A DNA stretch of 56,779 nucleotides from a virus. Both the position numbers and the translations under genes were made by a program. Under the pieces are notes generated by a model. It was not told the DNA's origin and made no database searches. It saw nothing but the letters and a program-made list of their open reading frames with translations. The first letter of the stretch is position 1; each line of letters opens with the position of its first letter. Shown here in pieces: positions 35,486 through 51,654 of this stretch. The DNA is taken from positions 1-56,779 of IMG/VR virus record IMGVR_UViG_3300031649_000002. One strand, written 5' to 3'.

Positions 35486-35827
35486 TCAGGCCGCGAGCAG
35501 CATGCGCGCGGCGAGCTGGTGGTAGCAGCGCGAGCCCTTGACCCCAGCAGGGCACGAACAGGCGGTGGGGGCGGTCTTGTAGGTCTCGGTGCCGTCGGTG
35601 CTGACGGCGATGAAGACGACGGAGCGGAGGGGGACGATGGCGCCGTCCTCGATGAGCTCGCGGGCGGAGGCGACCTGGTGGGGCTTGTAGTTGGTGAGGT
35701 CGACGGTTGCGGTGCGGATCTTGCGGGCGCAGCGGGGGCCGTAGCCGAGGGCGATCGACTTGGCGGAGGTGAGGATGCGGTGGCAGTGGAGGCAGCGGGC
35801 TTGCTCGGTGGTGGTGGTGTTCTGCAT
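35486..35827 (-). CDS. Zinc protein with DUF6011-like and SWIM-like motifs
   Basis: 113 residues from ATG at 35827 after GAGGGGGCAGCA. CLHCHRILTSAKSIALGYGPRC (~11-32) is the Cys motif of small DUF6011-type proteins. CSCPAGVKGSRCYHQLA (~90-106) has the CxC...CxH spacing of a SWIM zinc finger. Both motifs suggest nucleic-acid binding. Divergent from the gene at 35929 across a palindrome-bearing promoter. Confidence 0.7.
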   Translation of the reverse strand: MQNTTTTEQARCLHCHRILTSAKSIALGYGPRCARKIRTATVDLTNYKPHQVASARELIEDGAIVPLRSVVFIAVSTDGTETYKTAPTACSCPAGVKGSRCYHQLAARMLLAA

Positions 35828-35850
35828 TGCTGCCCCCTCGTTCGTTTCCT

Positions 35851-35921
35851 TGTGGGTACACAGTAACCCGTAACCGTGTACCCACACAAGGGGTGACGTT
35901 AAGAAATCCGTGTGGGAACAT
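35851..35921. promoter_or_regulatory. Divergent promoter with repeated TGTGGG(T/A)ACA half-sites
   Basis: TGTGGGTACAC (35851-35861) and GTGTACCCACA (35876-35886) form a perfect 11-bp inverted repeat with a 14-nt spacer containing GTAACCCGTAACC. A third half-site, TGTGGGAACAT, lies at 35911-35921 next to the 35929 start. Probably bound by the ribbon-helix-helix-like protein encoded at 35929. Confidence 0.6.
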
Positions 35922-35928
35922 AGAACCC

Positions 35929-36207
35929 ATGGCAGCCGACCAGACCGACCACACCTTCAGCACCAAGTTCCGCATCCCCCGCCGCATGTGGGACGCCTAC
36001 GGAACAGCCGCCGCGCGCAAGGGCATCGACCGCAGCGCAGACCTCGTCGACCACGTCCGCACCTTCATCGAGCAGCACGGCAACGAACACGAGCGCACCG
36101 AACTGGCCGCCGCCGAGCAGGAGCTGGCCGAACGGCGCGCACGCAAGGGCGGCCGGCCGAAGAAAGCCACGGAGCGCCCGGTGAGCAGCGAGGAGAAGAC
36201 CGGATGA
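35929..36207 (+). CDS. Ribbon-helix-helix-like regulator
   Basis: 92 residues from ATG at 35929. HTFSTKFRIPRRMWDAYGTAAARKGIDRSADLVDHVRTFIEQ has the strand-helix-helix pattern of MetJ/Arc proteins. A charged helix and a basic KGGRPKK tail follow. Little Shine-Dalgarno sequence, so possibly leaderless. The upstream inverted repeats suit autoregulation; first gene of a three-gene plus-strand operon. Confidence 0.65.
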   Translation: MAADQTDHTFSTKFRIPRRMWDAYGTAAARKGIDRSADLVDHVRTFIEQHGNEHERTELAAAEQELAERRARKGGRPKKATERPVSSEEKTG

Positions 36208-37986: not shown

Positions 37987-38859
37987 TCAGGCCTTGGGAT
38001 CTCCAGTCAGGCCCTTGACCGCCGGAGGAACTCCCGCGTCCAGAGCCGCCGCAGCAGCAGCCGCGACATCGCCGCCCTCTCGCCTCCGAGCCGCGGGCGG
38101 CCGGGTCTTGGCGACCTCGGCATACGAGGCGCCGGCCAACACGACCGCCACGACCAGCACGGTCCAGCAGAGGCTCGGCGCCAGCTCGGCAAGCGGAGGA
38201 GCCACATAGGCGCTCCAGAGCATCGACCACTCCTCCACCGGCAACCGCGGGAGGAGCAAGTCGCGTACCGCCGCGTCGAACCCGGCGTCCCACAGGATCG
38301 AGCCGACCCCGCTGAGGAGGACCAGGTAGATCCCGACTCTGGTGTTGAGCAGGGCGCGCAGCAGGAGCAGCACCAGGTACAGCGGCGCGCTGATGACAAC
38401 GATCAAGGCGGCGGCCCACGCTGGCATTCGGCTGGCGGCACGGGCTCGGGCCAGGCCGCCGAAGACGAGCCGCGCTAGCCCCATGGCGGGCGGCCAATCC
38501 TGCGCCTCGTCGGCTTGGGGGGCCGGTTCGGCGGGCTGGGGACGGCTCAGGTCGGCGACGTGCTGTTGGTAGTACGGCGCGTTCAGGAGGCGGTGGCCCT
38601 GCTTGAGGTGACGGCTGATCTGGCGCTTCTCTTCGGCGTCGAGCCGCGCCTCGGATGCGGTGGCGACGACCTCGATGCGCGGGGTCAGACCTCCGAGGGT
38701 GAGCCCGTTGATCCACACCCGCATTCCCGGGTTGGTCGGATTGGCAAGGTGGCCGGCGAGCCGGGTGAGGATGGGTTGGGTCGTCTTCCCGATGTAGCGG
38801 ATCTTGTCGTCGCGGGGGTCGATGAGGGCGTAGATGGCGCCCTGTCGGGTGCGGGTCAT
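37987..38859 (-). CDS. GIY-YIG nuclease domain fused to membrane helices
   Basis: 290 residues from ATG at 38859 (overlap with the upstream stop). Residues ~7-90 form a GIY-YIG domain: AIYALIDPRDDKIRYIGKTTQ (IY...YIG), the catalytic-type Arg in LTRLAGHL, and a late Glu in DAEEKRQI. Residues ~145-250 then hold about three membrane segments (AAALIVVISAPLYLVLLLLRALL, VGIYLVLLSGVGSILW, LCWTVLVVAVVLAGASY). GIY-YIG enzymes are normally soluble, so a membrane-tethered form is unusual. It shares an operon with Spd-like membrane proteins. Could cut incoming or transferring DNA at the membrane; this is inference. Confidence 0.72.
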   Translation of the reverse strand: MTRTRQGAIYALIDPRDDKIRYIGKTTQPILTRLAGHLANPTNPGMRVWINGLTLGGLTPRIEVVATASEARLDAEEKRQISRHLKQGHRLLNAPYYQQHVADLSRPQPAEPAPQADEAQDWPPAMGLARLVFGGLARARAASRMPAWAAALIVVISAPLYLVLLLLRALLNTRVGIYLVLLSGVGSILWDAGFDAAVRDLLLPRLPVEEWSMLWSAYVAPPLAELAPSLCWTVLVVAVVLAGASYAEVAKTRPPAARRREGGDVAAAAAAALDAGVPPAVKGLTGDPKA

Positions 38860-39242
38860 GACGTCCGTTCGGTCTCGACTGCGGGTGCGCATTCGACGCG
38901 CACGTGGGTGCGGTTGGGGCTGGTCGAGTCATCCACGAGGAAGATCGACATCCCCTCTCGGGTTACGAGAGTGGTTCCGTCAGCAAGCTCCTGAACTGCG
39001 CGTTCACCGCTCAGGGGGGCGGTACCCCCCGATGGGGGAGGGGCGGACGAAACGGACATGCGGCGGCGCGCTGCCCGCCATAGAGCCACCGCCCCGACCA
39101 CCCACACGGCGATCACTCCGACCACATCCGACACCGCGAACAGGACCGCCAGTGCACCCCCGCAGAGGACCACCAGCACGCACGCGCCAGCCGCCCGCGA
39201 AGACTCCTGCGGCTCCTCGACCGGAGGGCTATCCGTGGCCAT
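38856..39242 (-). CDS. Two-helix membrane protein
   Basis: 128 residues from ATG at 39242 (overlap with the upstream stop). Two adjacent membrane helices (~19-60, GACVLVVLCGGALAVLFAVSDVVGVIAVWVVG) and a soluble C-terminal beta region (AVQELADGTTLVTREGMSIFLVDD). Part of the membrane cassette between 37987 and 41488. Function not known. Confidence 0.65.
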   Translation of the reverse strand: MATDSPPVEEPQESSRAAGACVLVVLCGGALAVLFAVSDVVGVIAVWVVGAVALWRAARRRMSVSSAPPPSGGTAPLSGERAVQELADGTTLVTREGMSIFLVDDSTSPNRTHVRVECAPAVETERTS

Positions 39243-39755: not shown

Positions 39756-39902
39756 CTATCGGATGAGGGCCGCGCCGAGCGCGGCGAGCGTGAGGATGAA
39801 TGCGGTGGTGGCGATGACCGGCGGGAGGGCGCGGGGTGCGATGGCCGCGATGCCGCATATCCCGCCGACTGTGGCGACCGAGAAGAACGCGGCGAGGATC
39901 AC
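39756..39902 (-). CDS. 48-residue hydrophobic protein (Spd-like cassette)
   Basis: GTG at 39902 overlaps the stop of the 529-aa gene (GTGA); stop TAG at 39756. Two hydrophobic helices (ILAAFFSVATVGGICGIAAIA and VIATTAFILTLAALGAALI) with a Pro hinge. Tiny double-helix proteins of this type are found in Streptomyces plasmid spread operons. Confidence 0.55.
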   Translation of the reverse strand: MILAAFFSVATVGGICGIAAIAPRALPPVIATTAFILTLAALGAALIR

Positions 39903-41488
39903 GGGTGGGACCCCGCGCTTCCGTCGAGGAGCTCTCGGATCTGCTGGGCTTTCGGCTGGCCGACGCGCAGTTCCCGCTTGAGGGTGTGGATGCTGGCGGG
40001 CCGGCGGTGGGTACGGCGGTGCTCGGTGTCGACCTCGCGGGCGCGGGCGAGTAGGGCGTTGAGGTCGCCTGTACCTGCCGTACTCGTGGGCTCGGGTGCG
40101 CGCTCGGGTACGGGTACGACCTCGGGTAGGGGCTGCTCTTCGGGCCGGGTACGGCTCACCGTGGGAGCGGTGGCGCGCTCTTCGTTGGCGCGGCGGCGGA
40201 CGAAGTCGACGGGGTGCTCGATGCCCGGTGGCACATCGGGTACGCGGGCGTGTACCTCGGTTCGGGTAGGGCGGGTACGGGCCATGGCGGCGGGTACAGC
40301 GGAGGCGAACTCGCGGCGTACCTGGGGCTCGGTGGTCAGGTCGAGGTGCAGGCCGGGAGCGGTGTACTCGCCGTCGGGTACCTCAGGTACGGCGGGTACG
40401 GGTACGGCCTGCGCGGCGGGTACGGGCTCGGGTGAGGCGTCGAGTTGAGGCCGTACGGGTACGTCGAGTACGGGCGCCGGGTTGGCCGCTCGGAGCGCCA
40501 GCCGTACCTGGGTCTCGGATACGGGTACGCCGTACTCGACGCAGAGCGCGGCGAGCTCAGCGGGCGTGGCGTCGGAGTGCGCGGCGTGTACCCGGAGTAC
40601 GGCATCGAACGGCTCCATCCGCCGAAGCTCCGCACCCGTGACGCCGAGCGGGGTAGCCGGGTACGGCTCGGGTACAGGCTGCGGTACCCACGGCGACGCG
40701 ACGGGTACGGTCCGCAGGTCGCCCGCGCTGCGCCGCCCGGCGAGCTGCTGCATGAGGACGTGCCGCTGCTGCCCGTCGAGGGACGCCCCCGAACGAGTGA
40801 GCGACGCGGCGAGCGCTGCCCTACCCCACGGGCCGAGCCAGCGGCGCGAGCCGAGGCGTACCGCGCGGGCGGTGGCCCGGTCGCGGCTGATCTGCTCCGC
40901 GGTACGGTTCCGGGTCGCCAGCCCGAGGTAGGACAGCAGCCGCTCGCGCAGCTCCGCGCCGATCTGCGCGGGCAGACCGGTGGAGAGAGCCTCGGGCCGG
41001 GTGACGCGGATCTCCAGGCCCATGGCGAGGTGCCAGAGCAGGCCGGCCATGACGGGGCCGAAGAAGGCGCGGACCAGGCCGCCCCAGACACCGGACTCGG
41101 TGAACGCGGGGATGATCTGCACGCCGGTGATGCACCAGACGAGGACGCCGGGCACGCCGGGGGTTCCCGCGGTGGTGCCGGTCGCGGTCGCTCGCTTGTT
41201 GGCGCGGGCCATGACGGCGCAGGCGAGGAGCGCGATCTCACCGGCGGCGAACATGACGGCGCGTTCGGTGGAGTCGACCATGCCGAGGCGGTGCTCGGCG
41301 AACCGCCAGCTGGTGTCTGCGGTGTAGGCGGTGCAGACCAGGGCGCCGATGCCTGCGGTGAGGACGGCGCCGCTGGTGCGGCGTACGACGATCGAGCAGA
41401 CGGCGGCCACTGCGAGCAGGAGGATGCCGGCGGCGAGGGCGGTCGGCCAGTGGTCGACTGCTGTCGCGAGGGGCTCGTCCAGGTTCAC
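39899..41488 (-). CDS. SpdB-like membrane protein with cytoplasmic DNA-binding-like C terminus
   Basis: 529 residues from GTG at 41488 (GGAG upstream). Four membrane helices in the first ~170 residues (ALAAGILLLAVAAVCSIVV..., VLTAGIGALVCTAYTA, AVMFAAGEIALLACAVM, FFGPVMAGLLWHLAMGLE). Next comes a cytoplasmic basic region, a Val/Pro-rich linker (~370-500), and a terminal helix-turn-helix-like segment (IHTLKRELRVGQPKAQQIRELL). This matches my recollection of SpdB/DUF2637-type proteins of Streptomyces conjugative plasmids, where membrane helices are joined to a DNA-binding tail. Its 3' two thirds is packed with GTAC. Confidence 0.6.
   Translation of the reverse strand: MNLDEPLATAVDHWPTALAAGILLLAVAAVCSIVVRRTSGAVLTAGIGALVCTAYTADTSWRFAEHRLGMVDSTERAVMFAAGEIALLACAVMARANKRATATGTTAGTPGVPGVLVWCITGVQIIPAFTESGVWGGLVRAFFGPVMAGLLWHLAMGLEIRVTRPEALSTGLPAQIGAELRERLLSYLGLATRNRTAEQISRDRATARAVRLGSRRWLGPWGRAALAASLTRSGASLDGQQRHVLMQQLAGRRSAGDLRTVPVASPWVPQPVPEPYPATPLGVTGAELRRMEPFDAVLRVHAAHSDATPAELAALCVEYGVPVSETQVRLALRAANPAPVLDVPVRPQLDASPEPVPAAQAVPVPAVPEVPDGEYTAPGLHLDLTTEPQVRREFASAVPAAMARTRPTRTEVHARVPDVPPGIEHPVDFVRRRANEERATAPTVSRTRPEEQPLPEVVPVPERAPEPTSTAGTGDLNALLARAREVDTEHRRTHRRPASIHTLKRELRVGQPKAQQIRELLDGSAGSHP
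40071..40707. repeat. GTAC-dense island inside the SpdB-like gene
   Basis: About 28 GTAC tetranucleotides in ~640 bp, often as GGGTACGGGTACGG clusters. On the coding strand they arise in different codon frames: GTA-CCC (Val-Pro), GTA-CGG (Val-Arg), CGT-ACC (Arg-Thr), AGT-ACG (Ser-Thr), GGT-ACA (Gly-Thr), GAG-TAC (Glu-Tyr). Valine is mostly GTA before a C-initial codon but usually GTC or GTG otherwise, so the pattern looks selected at the DNA level. Confidence 0.85.
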
Positions 41489-42732: not shown

Positions 42733-42767
42733 CCATGGCAAGCGGCCCACCGAATGAAAGGGCCGAG

Positions 42768-43067
42768 ATGAGCGACGAGGAGGTGCGCCGGGTGGCGGAC
42801 GCCCTTGACGCGGTCGAGCAGATCGCGGACTTGGAGCAGCGGGTCAGGGCGAAGAGCCAGGTGATGGCTGCTCAGGCCGAGCGCAACAAGGAGTGGTCCC
42901 ACGAGCGGGACGACCTGATTCGTCGACTGAACGGCGAGGAGGGGCTGTCATACCGGCAGATCGCGGCGCGCCTCGACATCAAGCTGAGCACGGTGCAGGC
43001 CGTGTTCCGTGGGTACAAAGGGTCGGGCACGACGCGGCCGAAGGTGGAGAAGGACCCGGAGGGGTGA
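42768..43067 (+). CDS. Helix-turn-helix protein with coiled coil
   Basis: 99 residues from ATG at 42768 (AAAGGG upstream). An ATG at 42735 is in frame but lies only 3 nt after the proposed -10. Helical N terminus (EEVRRVADALDAVEQIADLEQRVRAK) and a sigma-70 region 4-like helix-turn-helix (LSYRQIAARLDIKLSTVQAVFRGYKG, ~62-87). Likely binds the palindrome just upstream. Followed by a coupled DUF6221-like gene. Confidence 0.65.
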   Translation: MSDEEVRRVADALDAVEQIADLEQRVRAKSQVMAAQAERNKEWSHERDDLIRRLNGEEGLSYRQIAARLDIKLSTVQAVFRGYKGSGTTRPKVEKDPEG

Positions 43068-47233: not shown

Positions 47234-47983
47234 TCAGGCGGCGGGCAGGGTGAGCGCGGACAGACGACGGGCAGCGACCTCGCAGTACTCCTCGCGGGCC
47301 TCGATACCGATCGCCCGCCGGCCGGACTGGCGGGCCGCGTCCAGCGCGCTGCCGGACCCGGCGAACGGATCGACGACGAGACCGCCGGGCGGGCAGGCGT
47401 AGCGGATCAGCGGGTCGATGATCCCGAGCGGCTTCTCCGTCTCGTGCCGCCCGCCGCGCACGGACTTGACCTTGACCACCGACCGCATAAGGCGGGTTCC
47501 ATCGTCTTCATAGGTGATGGCCTTGATTGCTCCCGCATGGGCGGCACGGTCGTCGTACCTGGCCCTGGCGTGCTTGTCGGGACCCGTGTATGCCACTCGC
47601 GGAGTGTCGTGGTGGATGTTCCGCCAGTCACCGCGGTACCAGTGCGTGGCCACCTCGTGGACGCGCTTGAAGCGGTCGGCGGCGAACCCAGTCCCGTTGT
47701 GCTTCTCCCAGACCACGTCTTGGGAGAGCTTCCAATCGGCGAATTCCGGAGCTCGGTCGAGGAACATGCGTATCGAGCCGAAGCACCACATCGACGAGGC
47801 GACAGTCGCGGCGAGGGTGGTCCAGCCGTCGGGCCAGCGGTCCCAGGCAAGGCTCGTTTCGCTGTACGGCGGATCCGTCACGATGCAGTCGGCCTGCAGG
47901 TCGAGCGTGGGCAGGATGTCGCGGCAGTCGCCGAGGTACAGGGCGAGACCGGTCTCGTGGTCTTCCCAGTACGGGGTGGTCAT
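47234..47983 (-). CDS. DNA adenine/cytosine-N4 methyltransferase, beta class
   Basis: 249 residues from ATG at 47983. Catalytic motif IV DPPY at 37-40 near the N terminus and SAM-binding motif PFAGSGSA near ~215, i.e. the beta-class order IV...TRD...I. ADCIVTDPPYSETSLAWDRWPDG and KPLGIIDPLIRYACPPGG are typical. No restriction endonuclease gene is adjacent (the HNH at 49321 is two genes upstream), so it is probably a solitary phage methyltransferase protecting phage DNA. Confidence 0.88.
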   Translation of the reverse strand: MTTPYWEDHETGLALYLGDCRDILPTLDLQADCIVTDPPYSETSLAWDRWPDGWTTLAATVASSMWCFGSIRMFLDRAPEFADWKLSQDVVWEKHNGTGFAADRFKRVHEVATHWYRGDWRNIHHDTPRVAYTGPDKHARARYDDRAAHAGAIKAITYEDDGTRLMRSVVKVKSVRGGRHETEKPLGIIDPLIRYACPPGGLVVDPFAGSGSALDAARQSGRRAIGIEAREEYCEVAARRLSALTLPAA

Positions 47984-48031: not shown

Positions 48032-49240
48032 TCAGGCAGCCTCGTCCTCGACGAACGGTGCGGACGTCTCCGGCTTGATCGACCGCCACAGGTGCAGGCC
48101 CGTTGGCCGGCCGTCGAGGAGCAGGAACATCGCGGCACGGTTGGCGGGGTCGTTGATGCTCTGGACCGCGCGAGCGAACGCCCCGCGGTCGGCGGCAAGG
48201 TGAGCGACGCCCTTGAACGCGAACTCGACGAGCTGCTGCCGCTCCTTGTGCTGGAACTCCAGCCGCGCGGCCACCGACTTCACCCACGTGTCGAACTCGT
48301 CGGGCACCTGCTCCAGCAGCGCATCGAGCGGACCGCGGCCGCCATCAGCGAGCGCCTGCACCTCCGAGACCGGGCAGCCGAGCGACTTCGCGACGAGCTT
48401 CGGCGGCTGGCCGGCGAACAGCTGCATGCCGGCGTACCGCCAGATGTCCCGCTCGGTGATCCCGGTGAGGACCTTGTGGAGGCGGACGTACTCGGCAAGC
48501 TTTGCCTTCGCGCGGAGCCCCGAGGCGTAGCGGATGACGTAGCCCTCGGCGTGCATGCCGTTGCTCTGGTCGCCGTCGAGGGTCCGGCTGCCGTCCGTGA
48601 GCTCCAGCAGCTTCGGCAAGGGCATGGCGGGCCAGGTGCGGACGACCGTGCCGAGGTCCAGCCAGTCGACCGCCGCCGTCCGCAGGGGGATCTCGGTGCC
48701 GTCGATCTCGTAGGCGGCGAGAAGGACGAGGTCTTCCCGCTGCCCGTAGTTGACGACGATTCGGTTGCCCGGGTAGATGATCTCGGCGAGGTAGGTAGCG
48801 CCGGGCCATAGGGCATCGGTGTCGTGGTCGTCGAGCCAGCGCTGCGCCCACATGGCCTGCTCGCTGGTGAAGCTGCCCTTGGAGGCTGCCCGCCACCGGC
48901 CGGCGTGCCAGAAGACGATGCCGAGCGACCCGTCGACTTTGTCGTACACCTCGAACGGCTCGCCCTCGGGGAGCGGCGGCGCGTAGGTGTTGCCGTGCTG
49001 GTGCTCGCCGACGTTGAAGAACTTCGGGAACGGCCAGGCGACGATTTCGCCGGTCTTGTCGTCGGCGATCAGGCCGCGGCATTGGAGGGTGACCGGGGTC
49101 CAGGCGCGTTCGTACTGGGCTGCCCGCGTGTAGGTGTAGATCGACAGCGGAAGGGCGGGGTGCTTTCGGCGGGTGACGTGGCCGGCCTGGATGGCAGCGG
49201 TGAGGTCGGCGGGTGGGATGAGGGTGTCGAGAGTGGTCAT
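48032..49240 (-). CDS. RNA ligase, T4 Rnl1-like
   Basis: 402 residues from ATG at 49240. Nucleotidyltransferase motif I K101-V-D-G-S-L (YDKVDGSLGIVF) with upstream CRGLIADDKTGEIVAWPFPKFFN (the R and FxKFFN element of Rnl1). Motif IIIa-like YLAEIIYPGNRIVVNYG and motif IV/V EGYVIRYASGLRAKAKLAEYV follow. The helical C terminus (~255-400) may set RNA specificity. It would seal broken RNA, for example tRNAs cut by host anticodon nucleases. No polynucleotide kinase/phosphatase gene is seen in the window. Confidence 0.87.
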   Translation of the reverse strand: MTTLDTLIPPADLTAAIQAGHVTRRKHPALPLSIYTYTRAAQYERAWTPVTLQCRGLIADDKTGEIVAWPFPKFFNVGEHQHGNTYAPPLPEGEPFEVYDKVDGSLGIVFWHAGRWRAASKGSFTSEQAMWAQRWLDDHDTDALWPGATYLAEIIYPGNRIVVNYGQREDLVLLAAYEIDGTEIPLRTAAVDWLDLGTVVRTWPAMPLPKLLELTDGSRTLDGDQSNGMHAEGYVIRYASGLRAKAKLAEYVRLHKVLTGITERDIWRYAGMQLFAGQPPKLVAKSLGCPVSEVQALADGGRGPLDALLEQVPDEFDTWVKSVAARLEFQHKERQQLVEFAFKGVAHLAADRGAFARAVQSINDPANRAAMFLLLDGRPTGLHLWRSIKPETSAPFVEDEAA

Positions 49241-49273
49241 GGCTGGTTCCTTACTGACTCGTCGGTTAGTTGT

Positions 49274-49320
49274 GGGTGGGGTGTGGGGTGGGGTGGGGTT
49301 GGGTGTGTGGGGCGGGGCGG
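49274..49320 (+). repeat. G-run tract with quadruplex potential
   Basis: The gap between the HNH stop and the RNA ligase start carries at least six runs of 3-4 G on the plus strand (GGGTGGGG...TGGGGTGGGG...), i.e. C-runs in the message. Its rest (49241-49273) shows only a weak ACTGAC...GTTAGT inverted repeat. Confidence 0.6.
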
Positions 49321-49686
49321 TCAGGTGGTGGGCTCGGTGAGGGTGAGTTGGCCGGCGGCTTCGGTGGCGGCGCGGCGGGTGGCTGCGGCGGTTTCGCGGT
49401 GGTGGTCTGCGTCGTAGGCGAGGTGGCAGCCGTTGCAGAACGCGCGGAGGTTGTTCTCGTCGCAGTTCTCGGGGGTGTGGTCGAGGTGGGCGACGGTGAG
49501 GACGACCTTCGAGCCGGTGCCGTACGCCTGGCCGCCGTTGTGGTTGGGGCAGCGTCCGGTGTGGGTGCCGCGTCCGCATTCGCCGAGGCACTCGCAGTGG
49601 CCAGCAGCGCGCACCGTGCGGATGTGGAGGCTGATCTCCCGCCAGTTGGCCGGGTAGCGGTGGCGGTTCTCGGGCCGGATGGGCAT
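49321..49686 (-). CDS. HNH endonuclease
   Basis: 121 residues from ATG at 49686 (ATGA overlap). Starts NRHRYPANWREISLHIRTVRA-GHCECLGECG, then VLTVAHLDHTPENCDENNLRAFCNGCHLAYDADHH: catalytic H-L-D-H, structural Asn (NL), and CxxCH with the final His. A zinc site is completed by the earlier Cys residues. Small HNH proteins are frequent in actinophages and may nick DNA in packaging or act as homing-type nucleases. Not near terminase here, so a packaging role is unproven. Confidence 0.85.
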   Translation of the reverse strand: MPIRPENRHRYPANWREISLHIRTVRAAGHCECLGECGRGTHTGRCPNHNGGQAYGTGSKVVLTVAHLDHTPENCDENNLRAFCNGCHLAYDADHHRETAAATRRAATEAAGQLTLTEPTT

Positions 49687-49981: not shown

Positions 49982-50631
49982 GAGGCTTCGGCGCGGCGGG
50001 CGAGGGCGCGGCGGGAGGCTTCGCGGCGGCGCTCGATCTCTGCGGCCTCGATGGCCGGGTCGGTGGCTTCGCCTCGGCGTGCTGCGTGGGGGGCGCGTTC
50101 TTTGCCGCTGGAGAGGCGGCAGGGGCGGCCGATGGGTGCGGAGCACTTGGGGCATTCGGTGCCGAGGGGGCCGGGGCGGCGAATCTTGGCGATCTCGTCG
50201 TCCTCGTCGGGTACGTCGCGGCCGACACCTTCGAGGAACTTGGCGACCTGCTTGGTCGGCCCTCCGGTGAGCGCGGGCGCCTGGGTTGGTGCGGGGGCGG
50301 TGCCGCTACCGATGGCGTGCTGCTGGCGGCGGAGTCGTTGGATGTACTCCGGGTCCGTCTCGCCTGCCGGGGGTTCGTAGACGAAGTTCTCCAGCCGTTC
50401 GCGGCGGATGCTCTGGCGGTGGGTGCGGACGTCGTGGGGCTGGATCCACAGGCGTTGGCCGGCTTCTTTGGGTGGGGTGCCGTAGAAGCGGGCGACGGCG
50501 TCGAAGCAGTCTTGGTCGAGGGGGAGATCCTTGAGGGCGGTTGCCCAGGCGCGTTTGGCGATTTGGGAGGGCTGCCGGTTGTCGAAGGCGGCGCAGGCGG
50601 CGAGGAGTTGTTGTGCGTCGTCGGGGGTCAC
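49978..50631 (-). CDS. Replication-associated hypothetical protein with C-terminal zinc motif
   Basis: 217 residues from GTG at 50631 (CAGGAG upstream; overlaps the replication-protein stop). N-terminal helical part (TPDDAQQLLAACAAFDNRQPSQIAKRAWATALKDLPLDQDCFDAVARFYGTPP...) resembles domains that follow replication initiators in actinobacterial elements. The C-terminal CPKCSAPIGRPCRLSSGKERAPHAAR (~165-190) is a zinc motif shared with many small proteins here. Likely works with the upstream winged-helix protein. Confidence 0.6.
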   Translation of the reverse strand: MTPDDAQQLLAACAAFDNRQPSQIAKRAWATALKDLPLDQDCFDAVARFYGTPPKEAGQRLWIQPHDVRTHRQSIRRERLENFVYEPPAGETDPEYIQRLRRQQHAIGSGTAPAPTQAPALTGGPTKQVAKFLEGVGRDVPDEDDEIAKIRRPGPLGTECPKCSAPIGRPCRLSSGKERAPHAARRGEATDPAIEAAEIERRREASRRALARRAEAS

Positions 50632-51548
50632 GAGATCTCCTGTTCGGCGTCTGGGGGTAGTGAGAGCCATCCGGCGACGCGGGCGTCGGTGCCGGTGAGG
50701 GTGGTCTGTCCGCCGCCGGTGAGTGGCACGAGGAAGGCGCCCTGTCGGGGGCGGCCAGTGCCGCGGCGGGAGTCTTCGGCGATCCACTTCCGCCACGCTT
50801 CGGGCCAGTTCTTCCGGCGGGTCCCGGTGGAGCGGTAGTGCGCAATGAACTGGTTCGTGGAGTGGTTGAGGTCTACGTGCGCGTATTCGGCGTTGGCCCA
50901 GCGGCGCATCTGTCCGGTGACGGTGAAGCCGTCGATGTCGATGGGGGCGGGGGGCCCATCGGGCCAGGCCTCGTGCGCCCCACTACCCGCACTATCCCCA
51001 CCGGCATCAGCCATAGAAGGGGTTGGGGTCGGGACGGGACGGGACGGGGCTCCGTTAGTAACGCCGTTACGGATTCCGCTGACCTGCGGGTCTGCCTGAA
51101 CTTCGTGACGCTTTCCGGTCGCCGTCGTGTCGCCGTCGTGTCGCCGTCGTGCTGCGTTCGTGTCGCCGTCGTGCGTTTCGGGTGCATCGGAGCCGTCCGG
51201 CGGGACTGGCTTTCCGTTCCTCCGGCGGCGGAACTTCTCCTGCCTCTCGGCGTTCTTCTTCCGCTCGGCGAGTGTCTGTTCGCGGGAGGGGTTGTAGTCG
51301 AGGAAGTCGTGGATGACCCAGCCGTCGTCGGTGCGGTCCCATAGGCCGGCGTCTTCGAGCTGCTTCGCGGTTGCCTTAAGTCCCCGGATGTGCGCGACGA
51401 GCGTCAACTCGCGGTCGCTGATGCGGCCGTCGGTGAGGTTCTCGGAGCACCAGCAGATCGCGGAGACGTGCAGCCGGAAAGCTCGATCGGACAACAGCGC
51501 GACCTTCCGGTGGGAAGGGAAGCGGTCATCGAGCTTGACCCAGGGCAT
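50628..51548 (-). CDS. Replication initiator/DnaD-like winged-helix protein
   Basis: 306 residues from ATG at 51548. The N terminus (PWVKLDDRFPSHRKVALLSDRAFRLHVSAICWCSENLTDGRISDRELTLVA...LWDRTDDGWVIHDFLDYNPSREQ) is the winged-helix block of phage replication proteins. A basic disordered middle (~105-190, encoded by 11-bp repeats) and a C-terminal helical domain (MRRWANAEYAHVDLNHSTNQFIAHYRSTGTRRKNWPEAWRKWI) follow. Such proteins bind the origin, often inside their own gene, and load helicase. Confidence 0.72.
   Translation of the reverse strand: MPWVKLDDRFPSHRKVALLSDRAFRLHVSAICWCSENLTDGRISDRELTLVAHIRGLKATAKQLEDAGLWDRTDDGWVIHDFLDYNPSREQTLAERKKNAERQEKFRRRRNGKPVPPDGSDAPETHDGDTNAARRRHDGDTTATGKRHEVQADPQVSGIRNGVTNGAPSRPVPTPTPSMADAGGDSAGSGAHEAWPDGPPAPIDIDGFTVTGQMRRWANAEYAHVDLNHSTNQFIAHYRSTGTRRKNWPEAWRKWIAEDSRRGTGRPRQGAFLVPLTGGGQTTLTGTDARVAGWLSLPPDAEQEIS
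51119..51173. repeat. Five tandem 11-bp iterons
   Basis: TCGCCGTCGTG occurs at 51119-51129, 51130-51140, 51141-51151 and 51163-51173; the unit at 51152-51162 (CTGCGTTCGTG) is a diverged copy. The period is 11 bp, one helical turn, and not a multiple of three, so the array is maintained as DNA rather than as peptide repeats. It lies within the replication-protein gene and is a candidate origin. Confidence 0.7.
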
Positions 51549-51654
51549 CGGCACTTCTTTCGGTCGTACGGGATCAGGGGACTGGGTGTCTTGGCAGGGC
51601 TGGCCTCGCCCTGCCATACTACTTTAAAGATTGGAAATAATGGAAGGATTGGCA

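Follow-up and report, generated by a model that had tools for sequence, protein, structure and literature searches.

A dense array of the tetranucleotide GTAC lies inside the coding sequence of a phage gene, and related genes in other actinobacterial elements carry arrays of different short words at the corresponding position, with the word following the type of the C-terminal HTH that each gene encodes. We consider it likely that these genes form a widespread gene family of actinobacterial mobile elements in which a stretch of coding sequence doubles as an element address read by the gene's own membrane-anchored protein, that the words diversify together with the HTH through a readable residue-to-base code and domain swapping, and that the DNA word dictates the amino acids of the linker instead of being dictated by them. 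For the array at hand we favor, with slightly less confidence, a reading in which the words are bound by the gene's own membrane protein and thereby tether the element's DNA for maintenance or spread.

The window, meaning the whole 56,779 bp stretch of DNA analysed, is an IMG/VR record of a temperate phage of an actinobacterium (called a Streptomyces virus) and contains genes for capsid, ClpP-type protease, portal, terminase, tail, endolysin, integrase, and replication proteins. The gene of interest encodes a membrane N-terminus, a Pro/Val-rich linker that holds the word array, and a C-terminal FtsK-gamma-like HTH, in that order. Its features are as follows.

39899-41488, minus strand: SpdB-like gene, 529 aa, GTG start (open reading frame, full-length relatives, AF2 model).
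41000-41461, minus strand: predicted membrane-spanning N-terminal helices, codons 10-163 (hydropathy segments, AF2, conservation).
40712-40900, minus strand: confidently modelled helical domain, codons 197-259 (AF2 pLDDT 93-96).
40071-40708, minus strand: word array with 28 GTAC, most of them part of GTACCC when read along the coding strand (GGGTAC on the plus strand), plus 3 CTACCC.
40484-40651, minus strand: another helical domain modelled with confidence, possibly an HTH, inside the array, codons 280-335 (AF2 pLDDT ~96).
39911-40072, minus strand: C-terminal tri-helical HTH, FtsK-gamma-like, the proposed word reader, codons 473-526 (profile matches, AF2).
39977-39991, minus strand: covarying codons 500 (I), 501 (H), and 504 (K), which track word positions 2, 1, and 4.

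The initial annotation had counted about 28 GTAC sites in roughly 640 bp, and the count is accurate: 28 start positions fall within 40071-40705, where the window's own rate predicts about 2.5 per 640 bp. In a sliding-window scan the other sampled 640-bp stretches hold at most seven sites, save for steps that overlap the array, and the remainder of the window contains 191 GTAC against a Markov expectation of 211, so there is no window-wide elevation. All three reading-frame phases are represented (19 GTA-C, 5 xGT-AC, and 3 xxG-TAC among the 27 GTAC that fall in the linker test). The most enriched unit is longer than the tetranucleotide, being CGGGTA or GGGTA[C/G] on the plus strand and mostly one-handed; on the coding strand the array comprises 16 GTACCC and 3 CTACCC. 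Spacing of the 28 sites is irregular, ruling out regular helical phasing, and a few short imperfect tandem stretches of low score are present, for example at 40375-40426.

That selection acts on the DNA word, rather than on protein sequence or codon supply, was proposed from these features and is borne out by three lines of evidence. We permuted synonymous codons while keeping both the protein and its codons, scoring all 4-6-mers or 4-7-mers, and the enrichment in the window array exceeded every one of 200 such shuffles. This test is conservative because it permutes the gene's own, already GTA-rich codon set; its failure to reproduce the array indicates that the word itself is selected. Valine codons depend on context in the manner first noticed, with GTA used in 21 of 23 cases before C as opposed to 1 of 7 before another base (Fisher p = 3e-4). 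Furthermore, in pairs among relatives of the GTACCC class, Val codons lying within words are conserved in 85% of identical-residue columns, compared with 46% for other Val codons, and in the comparison with a relative that uses another word (L015), none of the four retained Val codons is GTA. Selection on the DNA word can hence be regarded as nearly certain.

Streptomyces genomes and IMG/VR contigs contain full-length relatives at 50-72% identity (best-segment identities of 70% and 54% in Streptomyces genomes). Matches occur in 153 of the 394 Streptomyces genomes searched, at 54 IMG/VR loci, and in 17 plasmid records, and about 180 distinct related genes were compared altogether. Additional viral scans for members carrying the window's type of HTH (type A) yielded no new contigs, and tblastn against a phage database returned no relatives. 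The related genes have a four-helix membrane N-terminus in common. Many have 19-28 GTAC in the corresponding 640 bp, and others have none. The initial annotation had named homologues that lose GTAC and conserve the protein as evidence against selection on the word. Such homologues exist, but in most of them another word is densely arrayed at the corresponding position, which strengthens the case for selection on the DNA word.

The words in these linkers include GTACCC, (G/C)TACCC, GCACCC, GCATCC, GCGTCC, TGACC(A), GGGGACC/CGGTCCC, CGGGCA, CGACA, GGAACC, GAGACC, and others; every phase is used, and reverse-complement copies are frequent, placing words on both strands. The best word scored above all 200 shuffles in 99 of 150 related linkers, and at most two shuffles were as good in 111 of 150; the test was weak or negative in the other 39, and one locus (L070) has no array. 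One linker (L059) contains 26 GAGACC and 10-11 GGTCTC, and its protein reads ET, xGDx, and VS because the phase and strand of the word vary. The strongest shuffle z-score, 13.7, came from a 712-aa relative on a Streptomyces olivoreticuli plasmid (L157:5806-7944), with 28 GGGAACC in its linker, counting both strands. At three loci (L037, L027, and L336) the frame is apparently broken before or at the HTH and the array is still present in the DNA, reflecting recent decay or sequencing error.

AF2 places the N-terminal helices of the window protein at residues 14-37, 40-66, 73-101, and 112-163, and codons 10-163 are the most conserved part of the family; the protein is predicted to be membrane-anchored. 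The C-terminal HTH is modelled as three helices (473-494, 500-507, and 511-526), with pLDDT of ~97 in the full-length model and ~85 for the domain alone. A profile of 55 type-A members matches FtsK gamma structures in the PDB (2j5p, 2ve8, 2j5o, and 2iut, E 1.5e-4 to 3.4e-4). The Pfam FtsK_gamma family (PF09397) was not reached at its cut-off (13.8 versus 30.6 bits for the window domain; the best of the 55 members has E = 0.0011), and Foldseek gave only weak, generic HTH matches for the domain (E ~1). Residues 307-356 have a sub-threshold match to Sigma70_r3 only (E = 0.16), and no RecA-like motor domain is present in the 529 residues. The label SpdB-like, given from the sequence, describes an architecture and is not a family assignment: the protein matched no Pfam, PHROG, or NCBIfam family, and no curated SpdB/DUF2637-type match was obtained.

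Across the family, the word goes with the type of C-terminal HTH and not with the N-terminus. Each of five HTH types is associated with its own word, which is far denser in the linker than in the flanks: GTAC for type A (median 20 per kb of linker versus 3.2 in flanks), GCGTCC for type B (27 versus 1.4), TGACC for type C (17 versus 2.9), GGGGAC for type D (25 versus 0.6), and CGGGCA for type E (8.9 versus 1.6). Profile comparison relates type C to type A (hhalign probability 92), while D and E are not clearly related to it, and types C, D, and E have no convincing relatives in the PDB. Natural domain swaps illustrate the association. N-termini ~86% identical to that of L053 occur with HTH B, A, or C, each with the matching word: L053 itself (HTH B) has 11 GCGTCC and 1 GTAC; L057, L075, and L077 (HTH A) have 8-10 GTAC and no GCGTCC; and L056 (HTH C) has 10 TGACC and neither of the other two words. 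Likewise, L122 and L108 have N-termini that are 97% identical and C-termini that are unrelated, with GGGGAC/CGGTCC giving way to CGGACCA/GCGGACC. On a tree of the N-termini the word changes at least 16 times; the well-supported independent pairs that can be counted number 2-3, none of them discordant, and are too few for a test of significance.

Within type A, individual residues of the HTH covary with individual positions of the word. For this analysis we used the motif x1-x2-x3-L-x4, corresponding to residues 500-504 of the window protein (I-H-T-L-K), in 65 type-A proteins. Residue 501 tracks word position 1, with two or more CTACCC in 0 of 30 genes encoding Arg versus 10 of 12 without Arg. 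Residue 500 tracks position 2, GCA(C/T/G)CC being dominant in 20 of 20 proteins with Leu and in 4 of the 45 that have Ile, Val, or Phe there, and residue 504 tracks position 4, with at least five GCATCC in all 18 cases with Gln, a number that the 47 cases with Lys or Arg never reach. The window protein has His at 501, together with its mixture of GTACCC and CTACCC. These associations persist after N-termini are collapsed at 85% identity (p = 3e-5, 3e-8, and 2e-10). Because the three positions had been chosen by eye on 52 of the 65 proteins, these p-values summarize a pattern in the very data that suggested it. Exceptions are L020 and L025, which have Lys at 501 yet only GTACCC, and L003, which has Arg but mostly GCACCC.

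The sole independent support for the residue code comes from word rules that were fixed before new loci were fetched and were then scored on the new, non-duplicate loci, where cases arose for the GTACCC and GCATCC rules and none for the GCACCC or CTACCC-mix rules. The GTACCC rule was correct in 8 of 8 cases. The GCATCC rule (LR.LQ class) was correct in 2 of 7 by strict scoring, with one tie, and in 7 of 7 when the word was read as GCA(C/T/G)CC, with GTACCC in none. The misses differ in helix 3, having GQxKAQLLQ or GQRRAQRLQ versus GQxRAQR[MI]R, an after-the-fact reading of which is that residue 504 is probably not the only determinant of word position 4.

Taken together, the swaps and the residue covariation suggest that the encoded C-terminal domain is very probably the reader of the words. 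The initial annotation had envisaged a sequence-reading protein of one kind or another; the candidate that emerges is the encoded membrane protein, whose FtsK-gamma-like C-terminus has residues that covary with the word, while neither a methylase nor a motor-type orienting signal is supported.

Genes that neighbor the array-bearing gene are not conserved across the family, which leaves the host or the encoded protein as candidates and the protein itself as the common factor. The window genes that bear on this question are the following.

35827-36207: RHH-like regulator, neighbor of the SpdB-like gene.
42735-43067: HTH regulator, neighbor of the SpdB-like gene.
47234-47983: N6/N4 DNA methylase in the early region of the phage, adjoining a T4-type RNA ligase gene (48032-49591).
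50628-51617: replication-initiation protein, separate from the SpdB-like gene.

The two regulators were rejected as readers, being only sporadic in relatives. Elsewhere in the window, an open reading frame at 37987-38892 has a weak match to GIY-YIG endonucleases (E = 0.008) followed by apparent membrane sequence, and 51631-51993 matches Phd/YefM-type antitoxins, with no obvious toxin identified. Among the plasmid relatives, 6 of 14 have a ParA-family or segregation-ATPase gene within ~2.5 kb (L152, L154, L155, L348, L349, and L350, on actinobacterial plasmids including those of Mycobacterium), often with a small unknown gene in between. Chromosomal relatives lie near integrases and near relaxase- and MobC-like genes (the latter recognized by eye), phage relatives lie near portal and terminase genes, and DnaC-like, SSB-like, and replisome-organizer-like genes are found near some relatives. 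The common denominator of these loci is a mobile element.

We propose that the protein binds its own gene at the many sites of the GTAC island. The N-terminal helices would anchor the protein in the membrane and the HTH (residues 473-526) would read GTACCC/CTACCC, such that binding at ~28 sites in the gene could hold the element's DNA at the membrane, providing an element-specific address for maintenance, segregation, or intramycelial spread. Codons and even amino acids of the linker (VP for GTACCC, ET for GAGACC) would follow the word because a long disordered linker is the part of the gene freest to write, and a change of HTH would bring a change of word. From the covariation we strongly infer direct binding of the protein to the words, and more weakly a role in tethering or partition. 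The mobile-element setting, the predicted membrane anchor, and the ParA-type neighbors favor an element-specific membrane tether, and we give tethering or maintenance about an even chance of being the purpose. The window yielded no ParA and the phage carries an integrase, which makes a need for partition less evident there.

Several other explanations would account for part of these observations. In an autoregulatory scheme the protein would read the words in its own gene and block transcription through it, keeping its level low; the sites do fall within transcribed sequence, in the gene of the reader itself, and covariation of HTH and word fits equally well, but 20-35 sites over ~600-900 bp are far above what a roadblock needs, and the membrane anchor and the ParA-type neighbors of plasmid relatives are left unexplained. 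We regard autoregulation as unlikely, although less so than the other alternatives. An intragenic replication origin in the manner of ori lambda, at which the protein or a partner initiates, would match the arrangement of type-specific sites in an interdomain linker and the replication-type genes near some relatives. Against an origin are the membrane character of the protein, the separate replication-initiation gene in the window, and words that are GC-rich, irregularly spaced, and present in both orientations, and we hold this explanation to be improbable. Equally improbable is a separate motor, either host FtsK or a TraB-type translocase, that reads the words as KOPS- or TRS-like loading sites. 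The C-terminal domain does resemble FtsK gamma, and the KOPS sequence, GGGNAGGG, is matched over its first half by GGGTA; however, the words differ among elements of one host genus and track the encoded HTH, and no FtsK/TraB motor was found among the ~40 window open reading frames scanned. Words occur in both orientations within arrays, and no class-specific polarity is seen across the elements: rates of GTACCC and GGGTAC outside the gene are alike in the GTACCC and other classes, with GTACCC:GGGTAC ratios of 50:19 upstream and 55:55 downstream of the gene in GTACCC-class loci and 61:47 and 53:33 in other classes. Post hoc, the flanks of GTACCC-class genes may be weakly polarized with respect to the array.

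The competing explanation put forward at the outset was slippage of a GGGTAC unit. The short tandem stretches and the Pro/Val-rich composition of the linker would be consistent with a by-product of slippage, low-complexity protein, or codon usage. Yet words in all phases and as reverse complements, such as GAGACC/GGTCTC in L059, exclude simple slippage, the tandem stretches being short and low-scoring. Synonymous shuffles fail to reproduce the array, Val codons depend on context, and homologous linkers carry different words, leaving a by-product of any such kind highly improbable. Least probable of all, and scarcely credible, is the use of the array as methylase or restriction sites, which the initial annotation had listed. 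GTAC is the RsaI site and the window does encode a DNA methylase, but of 56 related loci 6 show matches to the methylase gene, short or weak ones at best, so the window enzyme is without a near relative in array-bearing loci, and it is the HTH encoded by a different gene with which the word varies.

If the array is read by its own membrane-anchored product, a disordered protein region has been written by selection on DNA sites for that product, giving a coding sequence a second job. Evolution would have supplied a residue-to-base table for an FtsK-gamma-like HTH, usable to decode such reading domains, and sequence alone would predict the DNA bound by each Spd-type protein. This would offer a handle on the long-open role of Spd-type membrane proteins in Streptomyces plasmids, phages, and integrative elements. 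We found no description of such an arrangement in the open literature, an absence that is weak evidence given that subscription papers were mostly outside its coverage.

Partial parallels exist in several known systems. In phage lambda, ori lambda lies inside the gene for the initiator lambda O, which is likewise a type-specific DNA-binding protein with sites in the linker part of the gene that encodes it; lambda O differs in having four regular iterons, in being a replication initiator, and in lacking a membrane anchor. FtsK gamma reads KOPS (PMC2680272; PDB 2ve8, 2ve9, 2j5p), and the likeness to FtsK and to SpoIIIE with its SRS sites consists in the profile-related C-terminal domain of the window's class and in the resemblance of the GGGTA core to the KOPS sequence. 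Here, in contrast, there is no ATPase motor, the array is dense and local within its own gene rather than genome-wide and polarized, and the words are hexamers. TubY of type III plasmid partition is a single maintenance protein that binds both membrane and DNA (PMC7762940), a combination that we propose here on inferred grounds; unlike the window protein, TubY has an amphipathic tail, an N-terminal MerR-like HTH, and sites outside its own gene. Among Streptomyces mobile elements, SpdB2 is reported to be a non-specific DNA binder and the TRS sites belong to TraB (reviewed in PMC4170104). The similarity lies in a membrane protein with DNA-binding activity, which for the present family would follow from covariation, and the difference is that no TraB was found here. 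The closest precedent is SpdA2/sps of the Streptomyces plasmid pIJ101, a DNA-binding spread and stability protein with sites inside its own coding region, whose loss affects segregational stability (PMC4170104). SpdA2/sps has 2-3 copies of one conserved 12-bp palindrome, whereas the arrays described here hold 20-35 copies of a word of 5-7 bp, with each subfamily having its own, and the protein is a different one, with predicted membrane helices and a swappable HTH.
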